Shown here in pieces: positions 5,308-30,712 of a DNA stretch of 32,422 nt. Both the position numbers and the translations under genes were made by a program. Position 1 is the stretch's first letter, and the number at the start of each line of letters is the position of its first letter. The stretch spans positions 1-32,422 of the forward strand of contig CAIWVP010000080.1 in NCBI GenBank assembly GCA_903916195.1, given 5' to 3'. The notes beneath the pieces are model-generated. The model did no database searches. It had not been told where the DNA came from and saw nothing but the letters and a program-made list of their open reading frames with translations. Source of the DNA: an uncultured Verrucomicrobiota bacterium (lineage in GTDB: Bacteria; Verrucomicrobiota; Verrucomicrobiia; Limisphaerales; UBA9464).

Positions 5308-5343
5308 GCCGTCGTCCCGCCTATCGCTGAAAAGCGTGACGTC
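5308..5343. repeat. 36-bp direct repeat, copy 1
   Basis: This copy is identical over 36 bp to 5381-5416, offset by 73 bp. It contains CGCT-GAAA-AGCG, a 4-bp stem with a GNRA-type tetraloop, and ends in the palindrome GACGTC. The sequences between the copies are not repeated. Only two copies exist, so this is not a CRISPR array; it may be a dispersed intergenic repeat. Confidence 0.6.
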
Positions 5344-5380
5344 CGGGCCCCGCCCTGCAGGTGACGGTCGAGAGCGCCAG

Positions 5381-5416
5381 GCCGTCGTCCCGCCTATCGC
5401 TGAAAAGCGTGACGTC
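5381..5416. repeat. 36-bp direct repeat, copy 2
   Basis: This is the second perfect copy of the repeat at 5308-5343. Its right end overlaps the stop codon (5417-5415) of the frameshifted minus-strand ORF. That suggests the repeat family sits at gene 3' ends. Confidence 0.6.
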
Positions 5417-5868
5417 AGCCCCCGCTCCGCGCGTCGAGGAAGCACTTCAGCTCGGTCGCCCTCGTGCCGCCGAAGCCGGCCACCGGCTCAATCTGCTCGA
5501 TGCTGGCGAGCCGCAGCCGCTGCGGACCTGGCGTGTCGGTGGCTGGTGAACCACCACGTCGGCAGCTCCGTCACGCTCCGGGCGGGTTCCAAGGCCAACC
5601 AGAGCAGCCGTACCAAGGCCGCGCGGAGATGGACCGCGCCGGACCCCAGCGGCCCGTGGCATTCCCAGTCGTCTTCCTGCGCCGACAGCACCGTGAGTTC
5701 CAACGCGGCGGGCGTCGGCCGCCACGCGAAGAACTTCGGCGGTGCCGGCCAGGCACCCGCCCGGTTGAACCGGGGCCGAAGCGCCAGCAACAGTTCGCGC
5801 TTCCCGGTCGGACAGCCCTTGTCCCTGTGAACAAGGCAGCGTTGACGGCGCCCTAGACTACTGGTCAT
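5415..5868 (-). pseudogene. Unknown ORF divergent from lexA, single frameshift
   Basis: Reading left from an ATG at 5868 inside the operator palindrome, the frame gives GKRELLLALRPRFNRAGAWP, APPKFFAWRPTPAALELTVL, SAQEDDWECHGPLGSGAVHL and LPTWWFTSH. The frame is then lost near 5538-5541. The next frame continues sensibly as DTPGPQRLRLASIEQIEPVA then GFGGTRATELKCFLDARSGG and a TGA at 5417-5415. Joining the two gives about 150 residues. I do not recognise the family. The shift needs only one extra base, so it could be a real mutation, a sequencing error or, less likely, recoding. Its position makes it a candidate member of the LexA regulon. Confidence 0.45.
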
Positions 5869-5880
5869 GTGACCAGTAGT
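5857..5880. promoter_or_regulatory. LexA-type operator: perfect 11-2-11 palindrome
   Basis: ACTACTGGTCA (5857-5867), a TG spacer, and the exact complement TGACCAGTAGT (5870-5880) end on the second base of the lexA GTG start. A repressor bound here would cover the start region of lexA and also the ATG of the divergent ORF at 5868. LexA genes are usually autoregulated through such dyads. That this LexA binds it is inferred. A TTGACG at 5842-5847 could be a -35 box; transcription would then start almost at the GTG, giving a leaderless message. Confidence 0.65.
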
Positions 5881-6493
5881 GATTGAGCCCACCCAAAAGC
5901 AACGAGCCGTGCTCGATTTCATCACCGGACGCATGCAGCAGGGCCACCCGTGCCCCAGCCTGCGGGAGATCGCGGCGCACTTCGGCTTCGGCAATGCCTA
6001 CGCGGCGTCCTGTCACGTCGATGCGCTCGTCGCCAAAGGGGCGCTGATCCGTGACCCCGGCAAGGCCCGTTCCCTGCGTCCCACGGCGGCGATCCCACGG
6101 CATCGCACGGCGGAGATCCCCATCTTCGGCAGCATCCCTGCCGGGTTCGGGGAGGACCGGGAAGAGGAGGCGGAGGGCTGCATCGCGGTGGACTTGGACG
6201 CACTGCAACTGAAGCCCACGGCCCGGACGTTCGCCCTACGGGTGAAGGGCGATTCGATGACCGGCAAAGGCATCCTCGACGGCGACTTGGTGCTCTTGGA
6301 GCACGGCGCGGAGGCACGGCATGGGCAAGTCGTGGCCGCGCTCATCGACGGCAAGAGCACGCTGAAGACCTACGTGGTGAAGAACCGGCGGCCGTTCCTA
6401 AGGGCCGAGAACCCGAAGTATCCCGATCTGATGCCGGCCGACGAACTCATGGTGCAGGGCGTGTTCGTGGCGCTCATCCGCAAGGCCCGATGA
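5879..6493 (+). CDS. lexA: LexA-type SOS repressor / autopeptidase
   Basis: The 204-residue product has a winged-helix DNA-binding domain (1-67; TQKQRAVLDFITGRMQQGHP, CPSLREIAAHFGFGNAYAAS) and an S24 peptidase-like C-terminal domain. All autocleavage parts are visible: the Ala88-Gly89 bond in IFGSIPAGFGE, nucleophile Ser126 in VKGDSMTGKGILDGDLVLLE, and general base Lys163 in GKSTLKTY. On SOS induction RecA-ssDNA triggers self-cleavage in this family. The start is GTG at 5879 with no Shine-Dalgarno sequence, overlapping a perfect operator palindrome. The stop is 4 nt before the polymerase-fusion gene, so the two form an operon and the polymerase is probably its main target. This may be a dedicated cassette LexA separate from a chromosomal one. 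Confidence 0.92.
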   Translation: MIEPTQKQRAVLDFITGRMQQGHPCPSLREIAAHFGFGNAYAASCHVDALVAKGALIRDPGKARSLRPTAAIPRHRTAEIPIFGSIPAGFGEDREEEAEGCIAVDLDALQLKPTARTFALRVKGDSMTGKGILDGDLVLLEHGAEARHGQVVAALIDGKSTLKTYVVKNRRPFLRAENPKYPDLMPADELMVQGVFVALIRKAR

Positions 6494-6497: not shown

Positions 6498-9400
6498 GTG
6501 CCGCGCGCCATCGTCCATCTCGATGCCGATGCGTTCTACGCCTCCGTGGAGCAGTCCGCCAACGTCAGCCTGCGCGGGAAGCCCATCGCGGTGGGCGGGG
6601 AGAAGCGCGGCATCATCGCGAGCGCGAGCTACGAGGCCCGCAAGTTCGGCGTCTATACGCCGATGCCCACGGTGCAGGCCCGCCGGCTGTGTCCCCGGTT
6701 GATCGTGCTGCCGGGCGACTTCGAGCGGTACGAACAGTTCAGCCGGTGGATGTTCTCCTACGCGCAGGACTTCACGCCCGACGTGGAGATCGCCTCCATC
6801 GACGAGGGCTACTTCGACCTGTCGGCCACGTCCAAGCCCGCCCGCGAGGTGGCCACGACCGTCCGCGACGCCATCCGCCAGACCCTCAAGATCAGCGTCA
6901 GCGAAGGCATCGCCAGCAACAAGCTGGTCAGCCAGATCGCCTCCAAGCTCCACAAGCCCGCCGCGTTCGCCGAGGTGCCCGCCGGGGACGAAGCCGCGTT
7001 CCTCGCGCCGCTCGCCAACAAGTGGCTGCCCGGCATCGGTCCGAAGACCTCCGCCCGGCTCGATGCGGCGGGGTTGGCCAGCGTCGCCCAGATCGCCGCC
7101 ACGCCCGTCGACCTGCTCGGTCTGCTCTTGGGCGGCCAAGCCTTGGCGGTCCGGCAGTTCGCGCGGGGTTTGGACGAGCGGCCCGTGGTCCCGCTGCGCG
7201 AGGCCGCCAAGTCGTTCAGCGAGCAGCAGACCTTCGCGGCCGACGTGACCGACGAGGCGTTTGCTGAAGCGACCTTGCGGCGCATGGCGGACCACCTCTT
7301 CGCCCGGGTCCGCGCCGAACGGCATACCATCCGCACGCTGACCGTGAAGGTGCGCTACAACGACTTCGCGGAGGACCAGTGCGGCGAAAGCCTCCGCGAG
7401 CCGACCGCCCTCGAAACCGACGTCTACGGCCGGCTCGGGACGATGCTCCGGCAGGCATGGCGGCGGCGCGTCAGCCTGCGGCTGGTGTCGTTGAAGCTGT
7501 CCAACGTCCACAACGGCAGCTTTAGCGTGGAACTTCCGCTGGAGGCCGACGCGCGCCGGCAAGGGGCCAACGAACGCCTCGCGCAGGTGGTGGACGGCCT
7601 CCGCAAGGCCCGGGGCCACTCGGTCATCTTGCGCGGCCACGACTTCACGCTCCGGGATGCGCCGGTCGCCAACCTCGCGGAGCCCGCGTCGGCCATCTCC
7701 GAACCTGTGAAGCGGGTGGTCCGGGTGCGGCCGAAGCCGACCGCGTTCGTGCCGCTGCGCGTCCACAGCCACTACACGTTCTTGGACTCGACGCTGTCGC
7801 CCGCGGCCATCGTGGCGCTGGCGGCGGAGCACGGGCTGCCCGCGGTCGCGTTGACGGACAGCGGCAACCTCCACGGGGCCGCCGAGTTCGTGCAGGCGGC
7901 CCGGCAAGCCGGTATCAAGCCCCTCATCGGAACGGAGCTGCGCGTGGGCGACCGGACCTTGCTCGCCTACGCCGAGAACGCCCAGGGCTACGCCAACCTC
8001 TGCCGCTTGCTGTCGCGTCCCAACGATAAGGGCGACGGGGACGAAGCCTCGGTGGCCACCCGCCAACTGGCGCCGTTCTATCGTCGTGACCTAGAGGGAC
8101 TGACCGAGGGGCTGCTGGCCGTCTCCGATGATGTAGCGCTGGCCGACCTGTTCCCGGATCGCTTCTACCAAGCCGCGACCTCTCCGCGCGCCGCGGGTCG
8201 TTTCTCGGCGGTCGCCTGTCCGCCCGTCCGCTACGCCGCGCCCGCCGACCGGCTGAAGTTCGACGTGGTGCAGAGCATCCGCACCCGCACGCTGTTGCGG
8301 CAGGGCCACGCCGACAAACGGTCCGGTGGTGAGTTCCACTTCCGCTCCCCGGCCGAAGCCGCCCCGTGGTTCGCCGCGCACCCGGACTGGGCCGCACACT
8401 CGCGGGAGATCGCCGACCGCTGCACTTTCGAGTTCCCGTTCGGCCCGCCGCAGTTCCCGGAGTTCGTGACGCCCGATGGCTCCACGCCGCGCGCCTTCCT
8501 GCGCCGGCTCGTGCTCGCCGGGCTGCGCGAACGCTACGGCCCGCGTGCGCCGCAGTTCGCCGCGCAGGTGGACGAGGAACTGCGCATCATCGCCGAGGTC
8601 GGTTACGAGGCCTACTTCCTCGTGGTGTGGGAGATCCTCCAGGACTGCCGCGCCCACGGCATCGACTGGATCACCCGCGGTTCCGCGGCGGATTCGATGG
8701 TCTGCTACTGCCTCCGCATCAGCGATGTCTGCCCCATCCGTTTCGACCTCTACTTCAAGCGCTTCCTGAACCGCGAGCGCATGGCCATGCAGAAGCTCCC
8801 GGACATCGACATCGACTTCCCTCACGACCGGAAGGACGACGTGGTGGACCTCATCTTCGCCCGCTACGGCCGCGAGCGGTGCGCCATCGTCGGCGGCTTC
8901 TCCACCTATCAGGCCCGCGCGGCGTTCGCGGACATCGCCAAGGTGCTCGGCGTGTCGGAAGGCCAGGTCCGCCGCTTCACCGAGCACTTTCCGTGGAGCA
9001 GCTCCGGCGACCTGGTGGAACGGCTGCGCGGCGATGCCGAGTGCCGGGACCTGCCGCTCGACGAGGAACCGTTCAAGACCGCGCTCGACCTGGCCTCGTT
9101 CCTCGACGGCGTGCCGCGCAACCCGAAGATGCACCCCTGCGGCGTCGTGCTGTCGCGCCAGCCCATGCACGAGCTGACGCCCACGTTCATCTCCGCCAAG
9201 GGCTACCCGACCACCCATCTGGACATGGACGCCGTGGAGTTGGTCGGCCTCGTGAAGCTCGACGTGCTCGCGCAAGGCGGCCTGTCGGTCCTGCGCGACG
9301 CCAAGGCATCGCTGAGCCAGCGGGGCGTGACGGTGGACTTCGCCGGACTGGAGCCGTGGGCGGACCCCGCGGTGTGGGCCATGGTGGCCGGCGGCGGCGC

Positions 9401-10757
9401 GCGGGCGGTCCACCATATCGAGAGCCCGGCCATGACCTCGCTCTGCCAGATGACCAACGTCCGAGAGATCGACGGCGTCATCGGCATCGTCGCCGTCATC
9501 CGCCCCGGTGCGGCCAACGAGGACAAGAAGCGCAGCTTCACCCGCCGCTATCAGGGCTTGGAACCCACGGTCTATCCGCATCCGTCGCTGGAACCGTGCC
9601 TGCGGAGCACGTTCGGCCTCGTCGTGTTCGAGGAGCACGTCCTCCAGATCTGCGAGGTGTTCGCCGGGCTGCCGGGGGGCCGCGCCGACGTGCTGCGCCG
9701 CGCCTTGAACAAGGGCAAGGCCGCGGTCATCGCCGAGCTCCGCGAAGAGTTCTTCGCCTGCGCCCAAGCCAAGGGGCACGCGCCGGAGCTGACCACGGAG
9801 GTGTGGTCGCTCGTGGCCGGGTTCGCGGGCTATGCGTTCAACAAGGCGCACTCCACCGCCTACGGCGTGGAAGCCTATTGGGGCGCGTGGATGAAGCACC
9901 ATCACCCCGCGGAGTTCCTCGCGGGAGTGCTCACCCACGGCAAAGGGTTCTATGCGCCGCTCGTCTATGTGCTCGAAGCCCGCCGGCTCGGCGTGCGCCT
10001 CCTGCCTCCCGCCGTGAACCAGCCCGGCCCGAAGTTCGAGGTCGTGGGCGGGGCCATCCGCGTGCCCGTCACGCGCCTCAAGGGGTTGTCGGACCGGACC
10101 ACCACGGTGCTGCTCGTCGAGCGCCGAGCGGCTCCCTTCGCGTCCCTCGCCGACTTCGCCCGCCGCGTCGCCCCGTTGCCGGAGGAGTTGGAGGCCATGA
10201 TCCGGGCGGGCGCGTTCGACGGGTTCGGGCAACCGCGCACCGCGCAGTTCTGGGATGCACAGGTGCTCCACCGCACCTTCGGCGGCGGACGCACCTCGGG
10301 CCAAGGTTGGCTGCTGCCGCCGCCGGGTCTGGAACGGCTACCGGAGGTCACGTTGCGCGAACCCACCCAGCACGAACGGCTGGAATGGGAGAGCGAGCTG
10401 TTCGGGTTCCCGGTGTCCGGCCATCCGCTGGACCTGTATCCCGGGATCGCATGGGCGAGCTACTGCCCTGTGGAGCGGCTCGGCGAGTTCATCGGCCAAA
10501 CGGTCGTCACCTGCGGCTTGGTGGTGGAATCCCGCGTGCATCACCAAGCGACCGGGGAGCCGATGAAGTTCATGACCATCGCCGACCGCACCGGCATCGT
10601 GGAGACCGAGTTGTTCGCCGCCAGTTACCGCAGCCACGCGCTGGCGACCCTCCGGTATCCTGTGCTGGAGGTGGAAGGCCGCGTGGAGCCCTTCGAGAAC
10701 GGGAACGGCTTCACGCTCCGGGTGCTGCGTGCCGGGAAGCCACGAACGGGAGCCTGA
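6498..10757 (+). CDS. Y-family (DinB-like) / C-family (DnaE-like) DNA polymerase fusion
   Basis: A single uninterrupted 1419-codon frame encodes two polymerases. Residues 1-390 are a Y-family translesion polymerase: metal-binding D9 (IVHLDADAFYASVE), D102-E103 (ASIDEGYFDLS), a GIGPKTSARL helix-hairpin-helix and a little finger (SLRLVSLKLSNV). After a roughly 30-residue linker, residues 418-620 form a PHP domain (LRVHSHYTFLDS, ALTDSGNLHGAAEF). Residues 630-1140 are the C-family palm (RGSAADSMVCYC, catalytic D769 and D771 in LPDIDIDFPHD, D922 in LVKLDVLAQGG), with helix-hairpin-helix at about 1180-1250 and an OB fold at about 1330-1415. PHP motif 1 reads L-R-V-H, as in E. coli DnaE, so proofreading is doubtful. 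The usual DinB clamp-binding peptide is not evident. It starts with GTG, 4 nt after lexA. Function inferred: SOS-induced lesion bypass and extension in one chain. Confidence 0.92.
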   Translation: MPRAIVHLDADAFYASVEQSANVSLRGKPIAVGGEKRGIIASASYEARKFGVYTPMPTVQARRLCPRLIVLPGDFERYEQFSRWMFSYAQDFTPDVEIASIDEGYFDLSATSKPAREVATTVRDAIRQTLKISVSEGIASNKLVSQIASKLHKPAAFAEVPAGDEAAFLAPLANKWLPGIGPKTSARLDAAGLASVAQIAATPVDLLGLLLGGQALAVRQFARGLDERPVVPLREAAKSFSEQQTFAADVTDEAFAEATLRRMADHLFARVRAERHTIRTLTVKVRYNDFAEDQCGESLREPTALETDVYGRLGTMLRQAWRRRVSLRLVSLKLSNVHNGSFSVELPLEADARRQGANERLAQVVDGLRKARGHSVILRGHDFTLRDAPVANLAEPASAISEPVKRVVRVRPKPTAFVPLRVHSHYTFLDSTLSPAAIVALAAEHGLPAVALTDSGNLHGAAEFVQAARQAGIKPLIGTELRVGDRTLLAYAENAQGYANLCRLLSRPNDKGDGDEASVATRQLAPFYRRDLEGLTEGLLAVSDDVALADLFPDRFYQAATSPRAAGRFSAVACPPVRYAAPADRLKFDVVQSIRTRTLLRQGHADKRSGGEFHFRSPAEAAPWFAAHPDWAAHSREIADRCTFEFPFGPPQFPEFVTPDGSTPRAFLRRLVLAGLRERYGPRAPQFAAQVDEELRIIAEVGYEAYFLVVWEILQDCRAHGIDWITRGSAADSMVCYCLRISDVCPIRFDLYFKRFLNRERMAMQKLPDIDIDFPHDRKDDVVDLIFARYGRERCAIVGGFSTYQARAAFADIAKVLGVSEGQVRRFTEHFPWSSSGDLVERLRGDAECRDLPLDEEPFKTALDLASFLDGVPRNPKMHPCGVVLSRQPMHELTPTFISAKGYPTTHLDMDAVELVGLVKLDVLAQGGLSVLRDAKASLSQRGVTVDFAGLEPWADPAVWAMVAGGGARAVHHIESPAMTSLCQMTNVREIDGVIGIVAVIRPGAANEDKKRSFTRRYQGLEPTVYPHPSLEPCLRSTFGLVVFEEHVLQICEVFAGLPGGRADVLRRALNKGKAAVIAELREEFFACAQAKGHAPELTTEVWSLVAGFAGYAFNKAHSTAYGVEAYWGAWMKHHHPAEFLAGVLTHGKGFYAPLVYVLEARRLGVRLLPPAVNQPGPKFEVVGGAIRVPVTRLKGLSDRTTTVLLVERRAAPFASLADFARRVAPLPEELEAMIRAGAFDGFGQPRTAQFWDAQVLHRTFGGGRTSGQGWLLPPPGLERLPEVTLREPTQHERLEWESELFGFPVSGHPLDLYPGIAWASYCPVERLGEFIGQTVVTCGLVVESRVHHQATGEPMKFMTIADRTGIVETELFAASYRSHALATLRYPVLEVEGRVEPFENGNGFTLRVLRAGKPRTGA

Positions 10758-10763: not shown

Positions 10764-11456
10764 CTAGATGCCGGTGAAGCCGATCTGCTCCGGCACCGGC
10801 GCGACGCATTCCGGCAGGTCGTTCCGTGCCGAGTTGACCACGGTGCTGACGCGGAACCGTCGCAACGTGTCCGAGGGGCAAGGGACACAAAGCGCGGAGA
10901 GGGTTTCGCGGGTGGCCTCCGGTGCGAGCCATCGCAGGGCGGCCTCGGCGTCGAGGATGACGGGCATCCGGTCGTGGACCGGACGCGTCACCTCGTTGGG
11001 AACCGTGGTCAAAATGGTGAACGTCTCCTCCCGCAACGCCGGCTGTTCCTTGGGTTCCCAACATTCCCACAGACCCGCCAACAGGAACGGTTCACCGTCC
11101 GTCCGCACAAAGCGCCAAGGGAGCTTTTGTTTGGCCATGGCCGCCCACTCGTAGAAGCCGTCGGCCGGCACGAGGCAGCGACGCGATTTGAAGGCGGAGC
11201 GGAAGGCGGGCTTGTCGGCGACGGTTTCCGAACGCGCGTTGATGCACTGCGCGGCGAACTTCGCATCTTTGGCCCAAGCGGGGATCAATCCCCACCGGAG
11301 TTCATCGGTGACCAGCTGGCCGTCGCGGTAGCGGACGACCGGCGCGATCTGCATGGGGGCGACGTTGTAGCGGGACCTCTCCATGGCCAGAGGCACCACC
11401 TCGGCGCCCACGCGAAGGCGCATCGGCGGTTTGGTGAGGCTGTAGCGTCCGCACAT
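10764..11456 (-). CDS. SRAP domain protein (YedK/HMCES family)
   Basis: The 230-residue product begins MCGRYSLTKPPMRLRVG, so Cys2 becomes the catalytic N-terminal residue after Met removal. Other family residues are present: Asn31 (YNVAP), NARSET at 73-78, Glu103 (ADGFYEW) and His161 (HDRMPVIL). Members form a thiazolidine crosslink with abasic sites in single-stranded DNA and shield them during replication; bacterial genes are often SOS-linked. The gene is convergent with the polymerase fusion, with only 6 bp between the stops. Its upstream region holds no copy of the lexA palindrome. Full length for the family. Confidence 0.92.
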   Translation of the reverse strand: MCGRYSLTKPPMRLRVGAEVVPLAMERSRYNVAPMQIAPVVRYRDGQLVTDELRWGLIPAWAKDAKFAAQCINARSETVADKPAFRSAFKSRRCLVPADGFYEWAAMAKQKLPWRFVRTDGEPFLLAGLWECWEPKEQPALREETFTILTTVPNEVTRPVHDRMPVILDAEAALRWLAPEATRETLSALCVPCPSDTLRRFRVSTVVNSARNDLPECVAPVPEQIGFTGI

Positions 11457-12000: not shown

Positions 12001-13257
12001 ATGATCCGATTCATCCACGCCGCCGATCCGCATCTGGACAGTCCGCTCCAAGGACTGGAACTGCACGAAGGCGCGCCGGTCGGATTGCTCCGGGGCGCGA
12101 CGCGGCGGGCCTTCGGGAATCTGGTGGACCTAGCGATCGAGGAGGCGGTGGATTTCGTGGTGATCGCCGGCGACCTCTACGATGGCGATTGGAAAGACTA
12201 CAGCACGGGGCTGTTCTTCCGCGGGCAGATGGTCCGGCTCCAGGCCAAGGGCATCCCGGTCTACCTGATCGCGGGGAACCATGATGCGGCATCGGTCATC
12301 TCCAAGAAGCTGGGCCTGCCCGAGAACGTGCATGTCTTCTCGACCCGGACGGCGGAATCAATGGAGGTGGCGGGGCATCCGGTGGTGATCCACGGGCGGG
12401 GCTTTCCGCACCGGGCGGTGCCCGAGAACCTGGCCAAAGACTATCCGTCGGCCGTGCCGGGCCGGTTCAACCTGGGCTTGTTGCACACGAGCCTGACCGG
12501 ACGCCCGGGCCACGACACCTACGCGCCCTGCTCGGAGCAAGACCTGCGCGCCAAGGGCTACGGCTATTGGGCGCTCGGCCACATCCATCAGCCCGAGATC
12601 ATCAGCGAGGACCCATGGATCGTGTTCGCGGGCAATTGCCAGGGCCGACACGCCCGGGAAGCCGGGCCGCGCGGTTGCCGGTTGGTGACGGTGAACGACG
12701 CGCTGGAGGTCGAGAGCGCGGATTGGCAGCCGTTGGATGTCGTCCGGTGGCAGGTGCTGGAGGTCGAGTTGACCGGAGTGGAGGAGGAATCCGAGGCGCT
12801 CCGCCGGTTCAGCGAGAGGTTGGGGCAAGCCGTCGCCGCAGCGGAGGGCCGGTTGGTCGCCGCCCGGATCGTCCTGAAAGGCGCCACCGGGCTGCACGGG
12901 GCGCTGCACCGCGATCCGCAGCGCTGGCGGGCCGAGCTGACTGCCCGGGCACAGGACCACGGTGAGGACGCGGTGTGGATCGAGCGGGTCCGGATCGAGA
13001 CGACCCCGCTCTATGATCTTGAGGAACTGGCGGAACGCGACGACCTCACCCGGGTCGTGCTGGATTCGCTCGCGCAGGCGAAAGGCGGGGCGTTGACGCT
13101 CCCGCCCGAGATCGGCGAGTTGTTCGATATCCTGCCGAGCGAGGTGCGGGCCGCGGTGGAGGCGGACTTGGATGAGGCCCGGCGTCCGGCGATCCTGGAC
13201 GAGGTCCGGTCCATCATCCTCGACGCGCTGGCGACGAAGGGAGGCCACGCCGCATGA
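12001..13257 (+). CDS. YhaO/SbcD-like DNA repair exonuclease
   Basis: The 418-residue product starts MIRFIHAADPHLDSPLQGLE and carries the calcineurin-like metallophosphoesterase motifs in order: D9-x-H11, G57-D58-xx-D61 (GDLYDGD), G92-NHD, LGLLHTS and YWALGHIHQPE. This is the Mre11/SbcD nuclease core. The N-terminus ('HAADPHLDSPLxG') and C-terminal length fit the YhaO subgroup. It presumably cuts DNA ends or hairpins in complex with the ATPase encoded next. Its stop codon overlaps the start of that gene (ATGA at 13254-13257), so the two are translationally coupled. No strong ribosome-binding site precedes the ATG. Confidence 0.88.
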   Translation: MIRFIHAADPHLDSPLQGLELHEGAPVGLLRGATRRAFGNLVDLAIEEAVDFVVIAGDLYDGDWKDYSTGLFFRGQMVRLQAKGIPVYLIAGNHDAASVISKKLGLPENVHVFSTRTAESMEVAGHPVVIHGRGFPHRAVPENLAKDYPSAVPGRFNLGLLHTSLTGRPGHDTYAPCSEQDLRAKGYGYWALGHIHQPEIISEDPWIVFAGNCQGRHAREAGPRGCRLVTVNDALEVESADWQPLDVVRWQVLEVELTGVEEESEALRRFSERLGQAVAAAEGRLVAARIVLKGATGLHGALHRDPQRWRAELTARAQDHGEDAVWIERVRIETTPLYDLEELAERDDLTRVVLDSLAQAKGGALTLPPEIGELFDILPSEVRAAVEADLDEARRPAILDEVRSIILDALATKGGHAA

Positions 13258-16200
13258 GATTGGAACGGTTGGACATCCCGGCCTTCGGGCCCTTCACGGA
13301 TCTGGAACTGCCGTTCCCGGCCCACGACTGCGACCTCCACGTCATCTTCGGGGAGAACGAAGCGGGGAAAAGCTCCTTGTTGCGGGCCATCCGCGACCTG
13401 TTGTTCGGCATCCACGGGCAGTCCGCGGACAACTTCCGGCATGACTACAAGAACCTGAGGATCCGGGGAGAGGTCAGCAACCGGGCCGGTGGGCGCTTGG
13501 TGTTCCAGCGGCGCAAAGGGAACAAGAACACCCTGCTGGATGTGGCGGGCAAGGAGTTGCCCGACACGGCGCTGGCACCGTTCCTCGGCAGCGTGGACAA
13601 GAACTACTTCTCGACCATGTTCGGCTTGGGCGGGGCCGAACTGAGGGAAGGGGCGCGGCAGCTCTTGAAGGCCGAAGGCGAGGTCGGCAACGCGCTCTTC
13701 TCGGCCAGCTTGGGCGGGACGCCCATCCAGAAGGTGCTGGCGGCGCTCAACGAGGAGGCCGAGCGGTTGTTCAAGGGCAGGGCCACCTCCAACGTGATCC
13801 TCCGGCCGGCCGCCACGCGCCACAAAGACCTGCTCAAGCAAAGCCGCGAGGCGGTGGTCAACCCCGAGACCTGGGAAGCCATCGAGCGGGAGCTGGCCGC
13901 CGGGGAGGAGACCCGGAAGAACCTGGAGCTGGAGGTCGCGGAACTGGGCCGGCGCTTGGCCTGGATCGCCCGCTGCGAAGACGCGCTGCCGGCGGTCGGT
14001 CGGCTCAGTGAGCAGCTCCGCCTGCTCAGGGAGATGCCGCCGTTGCCTGAGGTGTCGAGCGACTTTGTCGCCAGGGCGCGTGTCGCCCGCAGCCAAGCGG
14101 CGGCGACCCAAGGGGAAGTCGATCGTTTGACCCAGCACGTCGCGGTGCTCCAAGAACAACTGGCCGGGTGCGAGATCACCCCCGCGGTCTTGGAGCAAGC
14201 CACGGTCGTGGACCGGCTGCACCAAGACCTGGGGAGCTATCGCGACCGCAAGAAAGCCTTGTCCGACCGGGACACCAAGCTGGCTGGCCTCGCGCCGGCG
14301 TTGAGCGCGGGCATGCAGAATCTGGGGCTCCAAGGCGGCCCGGAGGTGATCGGAACGCTCCGGCTGGGCAGCGCCGCCCGTTTGGCGTGCGAAGAGGCGG
14401 CCCGCACATTGGAGGCAGCAGAGGGTCTAGAAGAATCCAACACCGCCAAGCTCGCGGAGCTCCAGGCCCAGATCGCGACCCGGGAAAAGCAGATGGAGTC
14501 GCTGCCGGAGGCGGACCTGGCACCGCTGCGGGACGCCTTGGCGAGCGCCGCCGGAGCGACCGAGGCGGACCGCACGCGGGTCGCGGCGGAGGCGGAAGCC
14601 GATCGGCTGGCCCGGGATGTGACCGACCGGCACGGGCGTCTGCCGGGGGCTCCGAGGAGCCTCGAAGCGACCGTGGCCCTGACGCCGCCCAGCAAGGCCA
14701 CCATCCGACGTGTCCGCGACGAGATGGAAGGCATCCGACGGGACATCAAGGCCGAAGAAGCCAAGGTCCTCGAAGGGAAGAAGCGCATCGAGAACATCCA
14801 AGCCGAGCTCAGGCGGGACGCACGCCGCGGGGCCTTGCCCTCGCCCGACGCGCTACGCGACGCCCGACAAAACCGGGACCACGGCTGGACCCTCGTGTTG
14901 GCGGAGTGGAAAGGTGACGGCGCCAAGGTGGAACTCGTGCCCGGCGTGCCGTTGGAGCAAGCGTTCCCGCGAACGGTGGCGCAGGCGGACACGATCGCGG
15001 ACGACCTGATCGAGCAGGCGGAGGCGGTGGCCCAGGCGGAAGAGAAGCGGTTCCAGATCTCGAAATCCGAGACCCAGAACCGAGAGGCGGAGCAGAAATC
15101 CGAAGAACTCCGTTCCGCCTTGGAGAAATGCCAGTCCGCCTGGGAAGAAGCTTGGACGCCCTGCGGCATGACGCCGCGAACACCCGATGAGATGGAGGAG
15201 TGGCGGGAAGCTTGGAGCGGATTCAAAGAGGAGGTGGGCAAGCTGAGGACCGCCGAGGAGGCCCTCCGACAGAAACGGCAGCAAATCCGGGAGGCCAACG
15301 AGGCGTTGGCGAGCGTGCTCGACGGATCCGAAGCGAAAGGATTCTCCGCGCTGTTCGAAGCGGCCAGAAACAAGGTCCGGACCGCGGAGAAGGCCGAGGG
15401 CCGCCGAGAAGCCGTGGCGGGCGAGCTCAAAGCCCTGAAGGAGCAACTGGACGCCCTGGGGCGGGACCGCGCCCGCATGGCGCAAGCGGCCGAAGCGGCG
15501 AGGCAAGACTGGAACGCGCAGTGCAAAGCCGTCGGGCTGCCTGAAGGGATCTCGCCGGAGTCCGGGCTGGCGTTGTTGCTGGAGCGGAAGGAACTCCTCA
15601 CCAGCTTCGACCGGTGGAGCGAGTGGTCGGCCGAGGCGCGGACACTTTCACAGCAGGTGGGCGATCACGGTCGGGAGGTGGAAGAGACCGCCGCGGCATT
15701 GGGCATCCAAGGGGACTCGGTCGAAGCCCAAGAGGCGGCGTTGTGGAAGGCGCTGGTCGCAGCCAAGGACGGACAAACCCGGCACGACCAATTGGCCGGC
15801 CAGGTCCAGAAGGCCCAGGTTGAGCTGGAGGAGAAGCACCAAGCGACCACCCGCGCGGTCCAAGCACTGGAAGAATTGGTCGGTGTGGCCCAGTTGGATT
15901 CCGCGGAAGAGCTGGAGCCGGTCTTGGCCGACCTCGAGACCAGGGACCGGACGGCGGCGCAGGTCGCGACGTTCCGGGACACCTTGAGCGGGCTGGCCCG
16001 TGGCCGCCCGGTGGACGAGTTCATCGACTTGGTCCGGGCCGAGAACCCCGACGATTTCCCACGACAGAGGGCGCAGCACGAAGGCGAACGGCAGGAAAAG
16101 GAATCACAGCTGCAGCGGGTCCAAGACACGCTGTCGGAAACGAAGCGGCGCCAGCACGAGCTGGAAAGGGCAGGGGACGCGGCGGCGGACCATCGGCAGC

Positions 16201-16748
16201 AGGCGGAATCATTGGCCGCCACGTTGCGGGAGGGCGCCGGCCGTTTTGTCCGGCTCCGACTGGCCACGCAGCTCTTGCAGGCGCAGATCGAGCGCTTCCG
16301 CAAGGAGAACCAAGGGCCGCTCCTGGAACGATCCGGCCGGCTCTTCCAGAGCATCACCCGAGGGGCCTTCAGCGGGCTCGACGCGGAATTCAACGCCGAG
16401 GATGTCCCCGTCCTGGTGGGGTCGCGACCCGGCGGCACCACCGTGGCCGTGGAAGGGATGAGCGAAGGGACCCGCGACCAACTCTATCTGGCCCTTCGTC
16501 TGGCCGCGCTCGAAAGGTATCTGGAGGAGCACGAGCCGATGCCCCTCATCCTCGACGATCTGTTGATCACCTTCGACGACGAGCGGACCAAGGCGATCCT
16601 GCCGCAACTCGCCGCCTTGGCCGGACGCACCCAGGTGTTCCTGTTCACGCATCACGAACATCTGGTCGAGCTTTGCCGGCAGACCTTGGGCGAAGGTCGG
16701 TTCCAAATCCATCGCCTCGATGCCGGCGCTGCGGGCCGGCCTGCCTGA
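13254..16748 (+). CDS. YhaN/SbcC-like SMC-type ATPase
   Basis: The 1164-residue protein begins MRLERLDIPAFGPFTDLELP and has Walker A GENEAGKSS at 33-41. YhaN-specific text follows (FGIHGQSADNFRHDYKNLRI, VDKNYFSTMFGLGGAELREG). The long middle (about 180-1020) is Ala/Glu/Gln/Arg-rich coiled coil. The C-terminal lobe carries a signature motif (GMSEGTRDQLYLALRLAAL, about 1067-1085), Walker B (PLILDDLLITFDDER, about 1096) and the FLFTHH switch. It is the SbcC/Rad50-like partner of the preceding nuclease. The Cys-x-x-Cys zinc hook of true SbcC is not apparent. The ATG overlaps the yhaO stop. Confidence 0.88.
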   Translation: MRLERLDIPAFGPFTDLELPFPAHDCDLHVIFGENEAGKSSLLRAIRDLLFGIHGQSADNFRHDYKNLRIRGEVSNRAGGRLVFQRRKGNKNTLLDVAGKELPDTALAPFLGSVDKNYFSTMFGLGGAELREGARQLLKAEGEVGNALFSASLGGTPIQKVLAALNEEAERLFKGRATSNVILRPAATRHKDLLKQSREAVVNPETWEAIERELAAGEETRKNLELEVAELGRRLAWIARCEDALPAVGRLSEQLRLLREMPPLPEVSSDFVARARVARSQAAATQGEVDRLTQHVAVLQEQLAGCEITPAVLEQATVVDRLHQDLGSYRDRKKALSDRDTKLAGLAPALSAGMQNLGLQGGPEVIGTLRLGSAARLACEEAARTLEAAEGLEESNTAKLAELQAQIATREKQMESLPEADLAPLRDALASAAGATEADRTRVAAEAEADRLARDVTDRHGRLPGAPRSLEATVALTPPSKATIRRVRDEMEGIRRDIKAEEAKVLEGKKRIENIQAELRRDARRGALPSPDALRDARQNRDHGWTLVLAEWKGDGAKVELVPGVPLEQAFPRTVAQADTIADDLIEQAEAVAQAEEKRFQISKSETQNREAEQKSEELRSALEKCQSAWEEAWTPCGMTPRTPDEMEEWREAWSGFKEEVGKLRTAEEALRQKRQQIREANEALASVLDGSEAKGFSALFEAARNKVRTAEKAEGRREAVAGELKALKEQLDALGRDRARMAQAAEAARQDWNAQCKAVGLPEGISPESGLALLLERKELLTSFDRWSEWSAEARTLSQQVGDHGREVEETAAALGIQGDSVEAQEAALWKALVAAKDGQTRHDQLAGQVQKAQVELEEKHQATTRAVQALEELVGVAQLDSAEELEPVLADLETRDRTAAQVATFRDTLSGLARGRPVDEFIDLVRAENPDDFPRQRAQHEGERQEKESQLQRVQDTLSETKRRQHELERAGDAAADHRQQAESLAATLREGAGRFVRLRLATQLLQAQIERFRKENQGPLLERSGRLFQSITRGAFSGLDAEFNAEDVPVLVGSRPGGTTVAVEGMSEGTRDQLYLALRLAALERYLEEHEPMPLILDDLLITFDDERTKAILPQLAALAGRTQVFLFTHHEHLVELCRQTLGEGRFQIHRLDAGAAGRPA

Positions 16749-23815: not shown

Positions 23816-26212
23816 ATGGACGCCGCCCAACTCAACTGGATCACCAACTTCATCTGGGGCATCGCCGACGACACCCTCCGCGACGTGTTCGTGCGCGGCA
23901 AATACCGCGACGTCATCCTGCCGATGACCGTTCTCCGTCGCCTCGATGCCGTGCTGGAGCCCACCAAAGAGGCAGTGCTCGAAATGAAGGCCGCACTCGA
24001 CAAGGAGCAGATCACCAACCAGGACGACGCCCTGCGCTCCGCGTCCGGCGAGGCCTTCTACAACACCTCGCCCTTCCTCTTGCGCGACCTCAAGTCCCGC
24101 AAGACGCAGCAGACGCTTAAGGACGACTTCATGGCCTACCTCGACGGCTTCTCGCCGAACGTGCAGGACATCCTCAAGAACTTCGAGTTTCGCAATCAAA
24201 TCCCCCGGCTCTCCGAGTCCGACGGCCTCGGTCAGCTCATCGAAAAGTTCCTCGACAAGGACATCAACCTCAGCCCCCGCGCCGTGGGCGAGTTGCCCGG
24301 CCTCGACAACCACTCCATGGGCACCGTCTTCGAGGACCTCGTGCGCATGTTCAATGAGGACAACAACGAGGAAGCCGGCCAGCACTGGACGCCGCGTGAT
24401 GCCGTCAAGCTCATGGCCAGCCTCATGTTCCTGCCCGTGGCCGACAAGATCGAGTCCGGCACCTACTTGCTCTACGATTGCGCCTGCGGCACCGGCGGCA
24501 TGTTGACCGTCGCGGAGGAAACCCTCCAGCAGATCGCCACCGCGCACGGCAAGCAGGTCGCCACCCACCTTTACGGGCAGGAGATCAACGCCGAGACCTA
24601 CGCCATCTGCAAAGCCGACCTCCTGCTCAAAGGCGACGGCGACGCGGCGGACAACATCGTCGGCGGCCCCGCCTTCTCCACCCTGTCGAACGACCAGTTC
24701 CGCTCCCGCACCTTCGACTTCATGCTCGCCAATCCGCCCTACGGAAAAAGCTGGAAAAGCGACCTGGAGCGCATGAGCGGCGATGGCGGCAAAAAGGGCG
24801 TGAAAGACCCGCGCTTCCTCATCGAGCACGCCGGCGATCCCGAATACTCCCTCATCACCCGCAGCTGCGACGGCCAGATGCTCTTTCTGGCCAACATGCT
24901 CAGCAAGATGAAGCACGACACGCTGCTCGGCAGCCGCATCGCCGAGGTGCACAACGGCTCCTCCCTCTTCACCGGCGACGCTGGGCAGGGCGAGAGCAAC
25001 ATCCGCCGCTGGGTCATCGAGAACGACTGGCTGGAGGCCATCGTCGCCCTGCCGCTGAACATGTTCTACAACACCGGCATCGCCACCTACGTCTGGGTGC
25101 TCACCAACCGCAAGGCCGCGCCGCGCCAGGGCAAGGTCCAGCTCATCGACGCCACCCAATGGTTCCGGCCCCTGCGCAAGAACATGGGTAAAAAGAACTG
25201 CGAACTCGCCGCCGAGGACATCCAGCGCATCTGCGACACCTTCCTCGCCTTCGAGGAAACGCCGCAGTCGAAAATCTTTCCCAATGCCGCCTTCGGTTAT
25301 TGGAAAGTCAAGGTCGAGCGCCCGCTCCGCCTCCACAGCCAGCTCACGCGGCAGCGCATCGAGACGCTGCGCTTCGCCTCCGGCGACGAGGACATCCGCG
25401 CGGCGCTCCACGAAGAATTCGGCGACCAACTGTTTGAAGACCACCCCAACATCGCAGCGGTGCTGGAGAAACGCCTGTCCGAGTGGGCCGATGCTGATGC
25501 AGAGGACGAACCCGAAGGTGGCGCAAAGAAAAGATTGCCGGAGAAAGTAATAAAGAAACTGTCCGATGCCAGGACGTGGGAGCGCGATGACGCCCTTGTC
25601 AAAACGGCGAACCTGTTACGCGAAGAACTCGGCGGCGACCTTTTTCCTGATCACAACCTTTTCCGCGACCGCGTGCAGGCAGCGCTGAAGGATCTCGAAA
25701 TCAAACCTTCTGCTGCCGAACTCAAGCTCATCATCAACGCCGTCAGTTGGCGCGTGGAAGATGCGCCGCCGGTCATCGCCAAAATACACAAGCTGGGCAC
25801 CGCCGAAGCCGACGAACTGCGCGGTCGTTATTCTGTCCCCCTCTCCGCCCTTGGGGGAGAGGGCTGGGGTGAGGTGGTTGGGCGAAAGGGAAAGAAGAAG
25901 TCAACTGAACCAGACATCTCGCACGCCATCGTCGAATACGAGCCCGACAGCGAGCTCCGCGACTTCGAGCAGATCCCGCTGCTGGAAGAAGGCGGCATCG
26001 AAGCCTTCATCCGCCGCGAAGTCCTGCCCTACACACCCGACGCCTGGCTCGTCGAGGCCGACACCAAGATCGGATATGAAGTCAGCTTCACCCGCCACTT
26101 CTACCAGCCGCCCCAGCTCCGCACCCTCGCCCAGATCAGCGCCGACATCCTCGCGCTGGAGCAGGAGACCGAGGGCCTGCTCCACGAAATCACGAAAGGA
26201 GCTTGCGTATGA
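23816..26212 (+). CDS. hsdM: Type I restriction-modification methylase subunit HsdM
   Basis: The 798-residue product has the HsdM N-terminal helical domain (ITNFIWGIADDTLRDVFVRG, YRDVILPMTVLRRLDAVLEP) and an N6-adenine methylase core. The core has a SAM motif YDCACGTGGM near 218-229 and the catalytic motif N306-P-P-Y309 (MLANPPYGKSW). A long C-terminal region follows. It methylates adenine within the site set by HsdS and forms the M2S core of the restriction complex. Residues about 672-695 (VPLSALGGEGWGEVVGRKGK) are encoded by an inserted REP-like hairpin and look foreign. The stop overlaps the ATG of the DUF1016 gene. The tail HEITKGA is repeated before hsdS. Confidence 0.92.
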   Translation: MDAAQLNWITNFIWGIADDTLRDVFVRGKYRDVILPMTVLRRLDAVLEPTKEAVLEMKAALDKEQITNQDDALRSASGEAFYNTSPFLLRDLKSRKTQQTLKDDFMAYLDGFSPNVQDILKNFEFRNQIPRLSESDGLGQLIEKFLDKDINLSPRAVGELPGLDNHSMGTVFEDLVRMFNEDNNEEAGQHWTPRDAVKLMASLMFLPVADKIESGTYLLYDCACGTGGMLTVAEETLQQIATAHGKQVATHLYGQEINAETYAICKADLLLKGDGDAADNIVGGPAFSTLSNDQFRSRTFDFMLANPPYGKSWKSDLERMSGDGGKKGVKDPRFLIEHAGDPEYSLITRSCDGQMLFLANMLSKMKHDTLLGSRIAEVHNGSSLFTGDAGQGESNIRRWVIENDWLEAIVALPLNMFYNTGIATYVWVLTNRKAAPRQGKVQLIDATQWFRPLRKNMGKKNCELAAEDIQRICDTFLAFEETPQSKIFPNAAFGYWKVKVERPLRLHSQLTRQRIETLRFASGDEDIRAALHEEFGDQLFEDHPNIAAVLEKRLSEWADADAEDEPEGGAKKRLPEKVIKKLSDARTWERDDALVKTANLLREELGGDLFPDHNLFRDRVQAALKDLEIKPSAAELKLIINAVSWRVEDAPPVIAKIHKLGTAEADELRGRYSVPLSALGGEGWGEVVGRKGKKKSTEPDISHAIVEYEPDSELRDFEQIPLLEEGGIEAFIRREVLPYTPDAWLVEADTKIGYEVSFTRHFYQPPQLRTLAQISADILALEQETEGLLHEITKGACV
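25839..25875. repeat. REP-like hairpin inserted in the hsdM coding frame
   Basis: CCCTCTCC (25839-25846) pairs with GGAGAGGG (25856-25863), followed by CTGGGGTGAGG. In another frame it encodes SPSPPLGERAGVR, the usual translation of a dispersed intergenic repeat seen in many GC-rich bacteria. Here it is read through in hsdM without a stop. Confidence 0.6.
26183..26202 (+). repeat. 20-bp direct repeat, copy 1 (hsdM tail and ribosome-binding site)
   Basis: These 20 bases, encoding HEITKGA and containing GAAAGGAG, are repeated exactly at 27420-27439. The copies flank the DUF1016 gene. Confidence 0.75.
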
Positions 26213-27330
26213 AAAAGACGACCACCAGGAAGGTGTTACCAACGCCGACACAATTAGCCGCACCAGTGGTGCGACAATCGTCGCCGGTGGTGGAGGAGAG
26301 TGTCTTCAACGAGGTGCTGCAGCTCATCAAGACCGCAAAAGAAAAAGCCTATCACGCGGTGAACACCGAACTCATCACGCTTTATTGGCAGGTTGGCGAA
26401 TACATCAGCCGCAAGATTGAGACGGATGGCTGGGGCAAAGGCACCATTCAAAACCTGGGGAGCTACCTGCAAAAGTCCCAGCCAGGGATTCGCGGGTTCT
26501 CACCCCAAAACATCTGGCGGATGCGGCAGTTCTACCAAGCATACCAAGGAAAACCAATTCTCTCACCACTGGTGAGAGAATTGTCGTGGACCCACCACCT
26601 GACCATTCTCAGTCGCTCAAAACGCGAGGAGGAACGCGAGTTCTACATCCGCCTCGCCATTCGTGAAAGATGGGGCAAGCGCGAGCTGGAACGCCAGATG
26701 CAATGCTGCCTTTTCGAGCGGGCCGTCATGAATCCGCCAAAAGTCGCAGCAGCGCTGCGACAATTGCAGCCCCAAGCCGCTGAGTTCTTCAAAGACATCT
26801 ACAATCTGGAGTTCCTCGGTCTCCCCGCCGACCACTCGGAGGCCGATCTCCACGGCGCGCTGCTGCGCAATCTGGGCCGCTTCATCACCGAACTGGGGCG
26901 CGACTTCTGCTTTGTCGGCTCCCAATACCCGGTGCAGGTAGGCGGGCAGGACTTTGCGCTCGATCTGCTCTTCTTCCATCGCGGTATGAACTGCCTCGTC
27001 GCCCTCGAACTGAAAATCCGCGAGTTTCGCCCGGAGGACCTCGGCAAGCTCAACTTCTACCTCGAAGCCATCGACCGCGACCACCGCAAGCCCCACGAAA
27101 ACCCTGCTGTGGGTCTTCTTCTCTGCGCGTCGAAGGACACCGAAGTCGTCGAGTATTGCCTCAGCCGCTCACTCTCCCCGGCCATGATCGCTGAGTATGA
27201 AACCATGCTCCCCGACAAGGAACTCTTGAAGGCCAAGCTGCATGAGTTTTACCAACTCTGCGCCCCGCCGGAGGATGAGGAAACGGAGGCAGCACCATCA
27301 AAGCCTGTGCGAAGGAGGAAGAAGCCATGA
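26209..27330 (+). CDS. DUF1016/YhcG-family PDDEXK nuclease
   Basis: The 373-residue product begins MKKTTTRKVLPTPTQLAAPV. Residues about 30-175 are the DUF1016 N-terminal helical domain (AYHAVNTELITLYWQVGEYI, GFSPQNIWRMRQFYQAY, ELSWTHHLTIL). The C-terminal PDDEXK nuclease core has Asp252 (FALDLLFFHRG) and Glu267-x-Lys269 (LVALELKIREF), then GKLNFYLEAID. YhcG proteins are often carried inside type I hsd operons. Their role is unproven; interaction with the restriction complex or defence is inferred. The ATG overlaps the hsdM stop, with AAAGGAG at 26195-26201. The unit is flanked by 20-bp direct repeats. A Lys/Arg-rich tail (KPVRRRKKP) ends the protein. Confidence 0.85.
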   Translation: MKKTTTRKVLPTPTQLAAPVVRQSSPVVEESVFNEVLQLIKTAKEKAYHAVNTELITLYWQVGEYISRKIETDGWGKGTIQNLGSYLQKSQPGIRGFSPQNIWRMRQFYQAYQGKPILSPLVRELSWTHHLTILSRSKREEEREFYIRLAIRERWGKRELERQMQCCLFERAVMNPPKVAAALRQLQPQAAEFFKDIYNLEFLGLPADHSEADLHGALLRNLGRFITELGRDFCFVGSQYPVQVGGQDFALDLLFFHRGMNCLVALELKIREFRPEDLGKLNFYLEAIDRDHRKPHENPAVGLLLCASKDTEVVEYCLSRSLSPAMIAEYETMLPDKELLKAKLHEFYQLCAPPEDEETEAAPSKPVRRRKKP

Positions 27331-27449
27331 GTCCCCGAAATTTAGACTCAGTGCGTCTAAATTCGATTCGGAACGCAATGCGTTCCAAATCGGATCGGCG
27401 ATGGTCCTCCCAGCCCGCGCACGAAATCACGAAAGGAGCCACGGCATGA
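27327..27449 (+). CDS. Small 40-codon ORF bridging the DUF1016 gene and hsdS
   Basis: The frame begins with an ATG overlapping the DUF1016 stop (27327-27330) and ends with a TGA overlapping the hsdS ATG (27446-27449). It reads MSPRNLDSVRLNSIRNAMRS, then ... PAHEITKGATA. The last ten residues are the original HsdM tail. The first part is encoded by two tandem hairpins. It is probably not a selected protein but keeps ribosomes coupled from the DUF1016 gene to hsdS. Confidence 0.35.
   Translation: MSPRNLDSVRLNSIRNAMRSKSDRRWSSQPAHEITKGATA
27339..27391. repeat. Two tandem hairpins before hsdS
   Basis: Hairpin 1 is AATTTAGAC (27339-27347), a 7-nt loop, GTCTAAATT (27355-27363). Hairpin 2 is GGAACGCA, one base, TGCGTTCC (27370-27386), with outer GATT/AATC pairing to 27391. 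Both are A/T-richer than their surroundings, look imported, and lie at the right junction of the inserted DUF1016 unit. Confidence 0.6.
27420..27439 (+). repeat. 20-bp direct repeat, copy 2
   Basis: This is an exact copy of 26183-26202, here supplying the GAAAGGAG ribosome-binding site 7 nt before the hsdS ATG. In frame it encodes HEITKGA, the original C-terminus of HsdM. Confidence 0.75.
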
Positions 27450-28915: not shown

Positions 28916-28918
28916 GCT

Positions 28919-30109
28919 ATGCCTGACAACACCAATCCGGTCCTGATCCGCCATCTGGCACCGAAGAACTTTCTTTCCTTCGGGCCTGACAACACGGGCA
29001 TTGAACTTCAATCGCTGAACCTGTTCATCGGCCCAAATGGCAGCGGTAAGTCCAATCTCATCGAGGCGATAAACCTCATGCGCTCGGCACCGAAAGAATT
29101 TCGCGACGTGACCCGAAAGGGCGGTGGCGTTGCAGAATGGATTTGGAAAGGGCAATCCAAGAAACCTGCGTCTGTGGAGTGGATCGTCAGTTACCCCAAA
29201 GGGAAGAAACCGCTTCGGCATACCATGGCATTCCACCCGGTGTCGCAGGCGTTCTCTCTGGATGATGAATGCGTCGAAGAGAGTGAGCCGCGATATGCGA
29301 GTGAGCCGGGAGTGTTCTTCTTTTACCGCTATCAAAACGGGCAGCCGGCCGTGAATACCGTGAAGGAGGGGCGACGCCAACTGGCGCGGGACACTATCGA
29401 GGCTGACCGGTCCATTCTTGCACAACGGCGCGATCCCGAAACGTATCCCGAACTGGCCTGGCTGGCGCAGAACTACGAGAAGGTACGCATCTACCGCGAA
29501 TGGGCCTTTGGGCGCAGTGCAGTTTTCCGCGAGCCCCAGAAGGCGGACATGCGGAACGACACCTTGGAAGAAGATTTTTCCAACCTCGGTCTCTTCCTTA
29601 ACCGTTTGAAGACCCGCTCACCCATCGCGAAGAAGGCAATCCTCACCGGATTGAAAGATCTCTACGATGGGATCACTGATTTTGACGTGCTGATTGAGGG
29701 CGGCACTGTACAGGTCTTCTTCACTGAGGGAGATTTCGTTATCCCGGCCACGCGCCTTTCAGACGGCACGTTGCGCTACCTTTGCCTACTGGCAATCCTC
29801 TGCGACCCCGAACCGCCACCGCTCATCTGCATTGAGGAGCCGGAATTGGGCTTGCACCCTGACATTCTTCCAAAGGTGGCAGACTTGTTGAGAACAGCCG
29901 CAACTCGCACGCAGCTCATTGTAACGACGCACTCGGACATCCTCGTGGATGCCATGACCGAAACGCCCGAGAGCGTGGTCGTATGTGCCAAGGCGGAGGG
30001 CCAAACCACGATGCAGAGATTGATTCCAGGGGACCTTGAACAATGGCTGAAAAAGTATCGGCTTGGGCAGCTTTGGACAAAAGGAGAGATCGGGGGAACC
30101 CGCTGGTGA
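28919..30109 (+). CDS. AAA/ABC-type ATPase (AAA_21-like), defence companion
   Basis: The 396-residue product has Walker A G38-PNGSGKSN (LFIGPNGSGKSNLIEAINLM). A signature-like segment ATRLSDGTLRYLCLLAIL lies near 280-297, with Walker B ICIEEPELGLHPDILPK near 303-318 and an H-loop in VTTHSDILVDAM near 337. This is the compact RecF/OLD-like ATPase head without long coiled coils. Paired with a TOPRIM-like protein it resembles PARIS AriA or the RloA-type ATPases known from hsd loci. The start is 3 nt after hsdS, and the stop overlaps the next gene's GTG. It probably senses phage interference and controls its partner; that is inferred. Confidence 0.85.
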   Translation: MPDNTNPVLIRHLAPKNFLSFGPDNTGIELQSLNLFIGPNGSGKSNLIEAINLMRSAPKEFRDVTRKGGGVAEWIWKGQSKKPASVEWIVSYPKGKKPLRHTMAFHPVSQAFSLDDECVEESEPRYASEPGVFFFYRYQNGQPAVNTVKEGRRQLARDTIEADRSILAQRRDPETYPELAWLAQNYEKVRIYREWAFGRSAVFREPQKADMRNDTLEEDFSNLGLFLNRLKTRSPIAKKAILTGLKDLYDGITDFDVLIEGGTVQVFFTEGDFVIPATRLSDGTLRYLCLLAILCDPEPPPLICIEEPELGLHPDILPKVADLLRTAATRTQLIVTTHSDILVDAMTETPESVVVCAKAEGQTTMQRLIPGDLEQWLKKYRLGQLWTKGEIGGTRW

Positions 30110-30708: not shown

Positions 30709-30712
30709 GCGC

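Follow-up and report, generated by a model that had tools for sequence, protein, structure and literature searches.

A single-chain fusion of a Y-family and a C-family DNA polymerase encoded next to lexA in Verrucomicrobiota

Introduction

The closest described relative of the system reported here is a mutasome predicted for Bacteroidetes by Timinskas and Venclovas, in which an apparently active PolY is paired with DnaE2 in the absence of ImuA and ImuB, the two polymerases being encoded by separate genes, and in which the tail of PolY carries a RecA-N-terminus-like (RecA-NT) motif (PMC6511836, PMC12926913). Bacterial Y-family complexes consist of several subunits and have no experimental structure (PMC12926913). 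SRAP (SOS response associated peptidase) genes have been described by Aravind and colleagues in operons with dinB, sometimes together with lexA or a DnaE paralog (PMC3765255). Here we analysed a stretch of 32,422 nucleotides (contig CAIWVP010000080.1 of assembly GCA_903916195.1, hereafter the window) from an uncultured bacterium of the Verrucomicrobiota, order Limisphaerales, in which a Y-family DNA polymerase and a C-family (DnaE) DNA polymerase are encoded as one chain directly downstream of lexA.

Results

Positions 6498-10757 of the forward strand form a single open frame, running from a GTG at 6498 to a stop at 10757 and encoding 1419 amino acids with no internal stops. Its domains confirm, on the evidence of the sequence, that a Y-family polymerase is joined to a C-family polymerase in one chain, with the following parts, all on the forward strand:

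6498-10757: fused Y-family/C-family DNA polymerase, 1419 amino acids (open reading frame and Pfam domains)
6519-6947: IMS domain, residues 8-150, with D9 and D102/E103 (Pfam, alignment, model of the Y-half)
7209-7511: IMS_C, the Y-family C-terminal domain, residues 238-338 (Pfam)
7578-7634: RecA-NT tail motif, residues 361-379 (profile-profile comparison with hhalign)
7656-7745: variable linker, residues 387-416 (variable sequence, high nonsynonymous divergence, low model confidence)
7755-8126: PHP domain, residues 420-543, probably catalytically dead (Pfam, alignment)
8496-9272: DNA_pol3_alpha, the C-family catalytic region, residues 667-925, with D769, D771 and D922 (Pfam, alignment)
9282-9773: DnaE fingers, residues 929-1092 (Pfam)
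9990-10241: HHH_6, helix-hairpin-helix region, residues 1165-1248 (Pfam)
10302-10316: QGWLL, candidate beta-clamp-binding motif, residues 1269-1273 (motif conservation, alignment)

A first-pass annotation, made from the letters of the window, had described an uninterrupted frame fusing the two polymerases, with D9, D102, E103, D769, D771 and D922 as catalytic residues and a linker of about 30 residues, and all of this was borne out; neither a stop nor a frameshift was seen where the two halves join.

The Y-half has the IMS fold and the three catalytic carboxylates of a Y-family polymerase, and the D and DE motifs of a solved DinB align with D9 and D102/E103. The C-half has the PHP domain, the Pol III alpha core with three aspartates, the fingers and the helix-hairpin-helix region of a C-family polymerase of the DnaE type. 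The PDFD and third-Asp motifs of E. coli Pol III alpha, which we take to hold its catalytic residues, align with D769/D771 and D922. The superfamily model polc was passed (591.4 bits, cut-off 434.35), and the DnaE2 model PRK05672 (NCBIfam, error-prone DNA polymerase) scored 546.2 bits, under its curated cut-off of 939.

We compared 42 distinct stop-to-stop frames that contain both halves and were selected for being fused. D9, D102, E103, D769 and D771 are kept in all 42 and D922 in 41, the exception being locus L016, where the stretch reads as X and the residue is not assessable. Because these frames were chosen as fused, their open linkers are no test of the fusion, for which recurrence is the test. 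The separate PolY and DnaE genes of split relatives also keep the catalytic motifs. The motif test discriminates, since it was negative for four ImuB proteins of the order and for a Desulfosarcina PolY and positive for a Persicobacter PolY, and an inactive Y-half was rejected because the catalytic residues are kept, which they are not in those four ImuBs. Between the window and its near relatives L005 and L013, the nonsynonymous substitution rate (dN) is 0.06-0.12 and the synonymous rate (dS) 0.7-1.0 in both halves; purifying selection acts on both. One fused frame, L032 (G052:C707), is 997 amino acids long and ends near residue 952, and a second contig of that genome holds the remainder of a similar gene. 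In 15 of the 42 frames, 15-26 residues are inserted at one place, corresponding to 9339-9344 of the window (after residue 948), past the third catalytic aspartate.

Within one order the fusion is frequent; elsewhere it occurs sporadically. In the order of the window, 119 of 320 genomes, and 65 of 118 genera, match the fusion at E 1e-130 or better, and by a hand count among the matches listed at least 59 of the 320 genomes have a single match that crosses from the Y-half to the C-half within one frame longer than 1400 amino acids. These genome counts are lower bounds, because the searches score only a few candidates per genome. A single-contig genome of 4.7 Mb (G479) carries the fusion in one frame. 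Among 387 genomes drawn from the phylum, 11 match at E 1e-120: G000, G244 and G396 are fused; G351 has its parts on two contigs, the first being a cut frame that continues into the C-half; G061 has a separate DnaE relative; five others are DnaE1 by tree; and G073, which was outside the tree sampling, shares its genus with one of those five. A scan of GTDB genomes gave 16 loci, 11 of them with a full-length fused frame (L005-L010, L012-L016); contig ends truncate L011, L017 and L018, and a separate PolY is present in L019 and L020. The records of these loci are titled Verrucomicrobiota or Kiritimatiellota, except for L010, titled Klebsiella pneumoniae, a title that is probably wrong. A record titled Akkermansia muciniphila (L014) also carries the fusion.

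In the Y-half tree, fused and split copies group together (100/100), to the exclusion of the relatives' dinB genes. In a quick, midpoint-rooted tree of the C-half with long branches, fused and split copies likewise form one clade (100, with the cut copy L104), which has the separate DnaE of G061 as its neighbour and is distinct from DnaE1 and imuC. The same tree, which is not that of PMC12926913, groups the C-half with the DnaE of Desulfosarcina and Persicobacter (99), both flagged as long branches, so that membership in the DnaE2B group of that paper is only tentative. Separate halves occur in family f15, as lexA-polY in G491 and G483 (L096, L098) and as a dnaE half with neither polY nor lexA beside it in G491, G492 and G481 (L095, L097, L099), and in the trees they sit among fused relatives. 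For the Y-half, an approximately unbiased test rejected trees in which the split halves fall outside the fused clade (p 0.025); for the C-half it did not (p 0.345). Since the two trees differ in this way, one fusion followed by fission in f15 is favoured by the sequences and not proven.

Directly upstream of the fusion, whose GTG comes four bases after the lexA stop, lie two further features on the same contig:

5857-5880: perfect 11-bp inverted repeat with a 2-nt spacer, putative LexA operator overlapping the start of lexA (repeat search, recurrence at lexA loci)
5879-6493, forward strand: lexA, 204 amino acids (TIGR00498, 137.5 bits, cut-off 110.95)

This is the sole LexA detected in the genome (a single hit at E 0.01 in a genome that is 96% complete). 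By eye, its translation contains the Ala-Gly of the LexA cleavage site and a Ser/Lys pair. Of the 18 distinct fused loci for which upstream sequence is available, the window among them, 16 carry lexA immediately before the fusion. In 11 of the 20 different lexA loci in this family, again including the window, lexA is preceded at a distance of 15-26 bases by a palindrome with a 2-nt spacer; the remaining nine have none at that place. In 200 draws each, random places of the same loci gave a mean of 0.23 and shuffles a mean of 0.13, with a maximum of 2 in both controls. The half-sites vary between species, and the copy in the window is the only one in its genome within one mismatch. Control of the fusion by LexA through this putative operator is likely, and the lexA operon around the fusion had been absent from the first-pass annotation. 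Also upstream of lexA, at about 5309-5417, there seem by eye to be two copies of a stretch of about 36 bases, separated by about 73 bases.

Two motifs may link the fusion to partner proteins. In the tail of the Y-half, residues 361-379 align in register on the N-terminus of RecA (hhalign against 31 RecA sequences, score 22.2, P 0.0015), a score that none of 100 column shuffles equalled, and we regard the presence of a RecA-NT motif there as moderately supported. In the C-half, QxWL[LIFV] is found in 34 of the 42 fused frames, and the Q of QGWLL aligns, with a 4-residue gap after it, on the Q of QLDLF in the E. coli chain, which we take to be the clamp motif of Pol III alpha. The pattern Q-x-x-[LMI]-[FLY] was not found in L099, L100 and L101. 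The usual site of a clamp motif in Y-family tails reads ELPLE in the window and is variable among the relatives.

The PHP domain is probably catalytically dead. Against Thermus DnaE, its HxH reads P-x-R and its TDHGN reads TDSGN; the first His is Pro in 40 of the 42 fused frames, and at the His of TDHGN the commonest residue is T (19 of 42). The active-site pattern of PHP is HHDHEH[C/H]DH (PMC12926913), and the departure from it, above all the Pro in place of the first His, makes proofreading by this domain unlikely.

The region between the halves (window residues 381-419) is 32-76 amino acids long across the fused frames (median 40), and its dN of 0.44-0.55 between the window and L005 and L013 is several times that of either half. 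A model of the Y-half (residues 1-403) has a mean predicted local distance difference test score (pLDDT) of 80.3 and matches the structures of DinB and Dpo4, with low confidence at residues 341-358 and 378-403.

The genome has one recA over cut-off, and its two IMS hits and two DnaE-core hits are accounted for by dinB, dnaE1 and the fusion. A search of the genome for ImuA (NF033429) gave only a match of 48 bits (cut-off 150) that falls inside the recA gene (C23), and ImuA was rejected on this ground, in agreement with the first-pass annotation, which had noted no imuA. The search for ImuB-C (PF20114), for which one control was over cut-off, gave a single sub-threshold match (13.4 bits, cut-off 24.2), and a standalone ImuB-C was likewise rejected. 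Many relatives carry another DnaE2, and imuB adjoins it in the four loci that were examined closely (L120-L122, L126). In a genome with an imuC-type DnaE2, a piece of 127 residues (G008:C21:2107-2487) is 66% identical to the end of the fusion and is perhaps a remnant.

Downstream of the fusion, and convergent with it, lies one further gene of the SOS response:

10764-11456, reverse strand: SRAP gene, directly after the fusion

Among the fused loci compared, SRAP is at this place only in L013, so we do not take it as part of the system; L100 has a distant SRAP match upstream of lexA. Near the fusion, at 12001-16748 on the forward strand, the gene for an SbcD/Mre11-like phosphoesterase and, after it, that for a large AAA_27 ATPase form a pair of the SbcCD type. 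The forward strand from 23816 to 32422 holds type I restriction-modification genes (HsdM, an S-domain and the start of HsdR) that run off the contig end, and between them lie genes for a YhcG-type nuclease, an AAA ATPase and a DUF4276 protein. A perfect 14-bp inverted repeat with a 1-nt spacer (26555-26583) is located within the YhcG-type nuclease gene.

Discussion

The fusion is probably a translesion polymerase induced in the SOS response, a two-polymerase mutasome contained in a single chain. LexA would repress its own lexA-fusion operon via the palindrome at 5857-5880, and DNA damage would activate RecA, cause LexA to cleave itself and allow the fusion to be produced. The C-half would grip the sliding clamp through QGWLL, while the tail of the Y-half (residues 361-379) would dock on RecA, which could possibly activate the fusion. 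The Y-half would then insert opposite the lesion and the tethered C-half, working without proofreading, would extend. A translesion function of the fusion is likely, and bypass followed by extension by one chain seems plausible. The single frame, its domains, the conserved catalytic residues, purifying selection on both halves, the linkage to lexA and a conserved palindrome in front of lexA are established. At the level of sequence, the RecA-NT motif, the clamp motif, the dead PHP domain and the absence of imuA, imuB and ImuB-C are partly shown; SOS induction, activation by RecA, both activities in the protein and the handover between them are what we infer. Our judgement is evenly balanced on the fuller proposition that this is a machine with two active sites on one clamp, the Y-site inserting and the C-site extending, which needs neither ImuA nor ImuB, arose once in a lineage of Verrucomicrobiota, stands in for ImuB-DnaE2 across much of the order and is encoded in one operon with the cell's sole LexA.

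Several observations weigh against this reading. Two of the 18 fused loci (L101 and L017) have no lexA within the 2-3 kb available upstream, and no nearby copy of the palindrome before the lexA of G491 was found at the unlinked dnaE halves L095 and L097, which speaks against strict co-regulation. With up to two mismatches allowed, the operator pattern occurs less often than its reversed control (4 vs 10 per strand), so a wider LexA regulon could not be shown. The RecA-NT region was picked after inspection by eye, its hhalign probability is 16.5%, and a profile of the tail scored 0.8 bits against the RecA of the same genome vs 8.8 for the best of 2000 shuffles, which is not significant. The control for NF033429 is weak, with zero control genomes over cut-off. 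A longer model (1190 residues, 12 sequences) was poor (mean pLDDT 53.4, predicted template modelling score 0.46) and was not used, so the geometry of the two active sites is not readable from it. In favour of the reading, the fusion and the imuB-linked DnaE2 type seldom occur together: in the order, 64 of 320 genomes match the imuB-linked type and 119 match the fusion, and 4 match both vs 23.8 expected (Fisher p 7e-10; by genus, 6 vs 14.9 expected, p 1e-4). For these figures two candidates were scored per genome, cut and split copies are included in the 119, the tables were typed from listings and the p-values ignore phylogeny. The near-exclusion fits two interchangeable systems.

An unlikely alternative is that the Y-half, like ImuB, acts mainly as a tether to RecA and DNA, and that the C-half alone carries out bypass synthesis. 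The layout mirrors ImuB plus DnaE2, and the two systems are rarely found in the same genome of the order. However, the catalytic carboxylates of the Y-half are kept in all 42 frames, whereas the four ImuBs of the order no longer have the motifs, and position 14, which adjoins the catalytic motif, is F in 36 frames and Y in 6; we take this position to be the steric gate.

That the gene yields two proteins in effect, through an internal start or proteolysis in the linker, and so amounts to a separate pair of PolY and DnaE2, we think quite unlikely. The linker is variable and of low model confidence, separate halves exist in f15, and an in-frame ATG or GTG lies somewhere in 37 of the 42 linker regions; only 5 of the 42, however, have one with a Shine-Dalgarno-like sequence, and no common signal for an internal start was found across the fused frames.

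We see little chance that the fusion is a second replicative polymerase, or one of a mobile element, with no part in damage tolerance, although its C-family identity and the occurrence of DnaE-like genes on phages and plasmids could suggest it. The genome has a separate dnaE1, and the fusion shares an operon with lexA. The match to E. coli Pol III alpha stops at residue 1058 of 1160, so the tau-binding domain at the end of that chain is missing from the fusion. None of 1360 matching phage records covers 80% of the query, so no fused relative was seen there, nor was one present in 950 plasmid records at E 1e-60, and a pattern scan of viral contigs gave one pattern match and no relative. When plasmids were searched less strictly, 14 records reached 80% coverage in joined pieces, and the one inspected, from Desulfosarcina, has separate genes. 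Finally, an assembly or annotation artefact joining neighbouring genes, conceivable in that the window is an entire contig of a metagenome-assembled genome, has a negligible probability and is ruled out by the recurrence of the fusion in many independent assemblies, including a one-contig genome, and by purifying selection on both halves.

The transfer of the primer end from an inserting to an extending polymerase has been hard to study in mutasomes. With a natural one-gene mutasome in which both sites are intact, the handover would be testable using one purified protein and two point mutants, and a single chain fixes a 1:1 geometry for structural work. The distribution suggests that such a fusion is able to stand in for ImuA-ImuB-DnaE2 across a lineage.

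The fusion resembles several known systems in part. The SRAP-dinB-dnaE operons share with it an SRAP gene beside the polymerase in the window, but they consist of separate genes, whereas in the window SRAP is encoded on the strand opposite to the fusion, next to which it is not conserved. With E. coli Pol V (UmuD'2-UmuC-RecA) the fusion would share a Y-family enzyme tied to RecA and the SOS response; Pol V has no second polymerase, and in the tree UmuC and the Y-half lie far apart. DinB (Pol IV) shares its fold and active-site motifs with the Y-half, yet the dinB of the same genome is 39% identical to it, belongs to a separate clade and by eye has no RecA-NT tail. ImuA-ImuB-DnaE2 likewise pairs a Y-family with a C-family protein and is linked to LexA, but there ImuB is catalytically dead and separate and is accompanied by ImuA and ImuB-C. 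The fusion does not belong to that system, since its Y-half keeps the catalytic residues and imuA and ImuB-C were not found in its genome; its C-half lies outside the imuC clade.

By sequence, the fusion is of the predicted PolY-DnaE2-RecA kind, with an active-type PolY that carries a RecA-NT motif (moderate support) and is tied to a second DnaE, possibly a DnaE2, in a genome where RecA is present and ImuA absent. On a Persicobacter plasmid, a PolY (frame of 402 amino acids) and a DnaE (frame of 986 amino acids) are neighbours in this order, and the PolY is only distantly related to the Y-half (33% identity). A fusion of Y- and C-family polymerases is not described in the main-text parts consulted of PMC6511836, PMC12926913, PMC3919608, PMC3765255, PMC8565304 and PMC3901139, and none appeared in the titles and abstract starts returned by literature searches, with subscription papers and preprints outside their scope. 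The first-pass annotation had suggested that the arrangement would be a new mutasome design, which holds for the single chain; the pairing of an active PolY with DnaE2 and RecA had already been proposed for Bacteroidetes from separate genes. Like the fusion, the predicted DnaE2B-PolY-RecA mutasome of Bacteroidetes combines an apparently active PolY with a C-family polymerase, in its case DnaE2, and lacks ImuA and ImuB; its PolY tail has the RecA-NT motif that is moderately supported in the fusion. It is made from two genes, whereas the fusion is one chain, in another phylum, with a candidate clamp motif in its C-half. New here are the joining in one chain, how the fusion is distributed and how rarely it coexists with the imuB-linked system.

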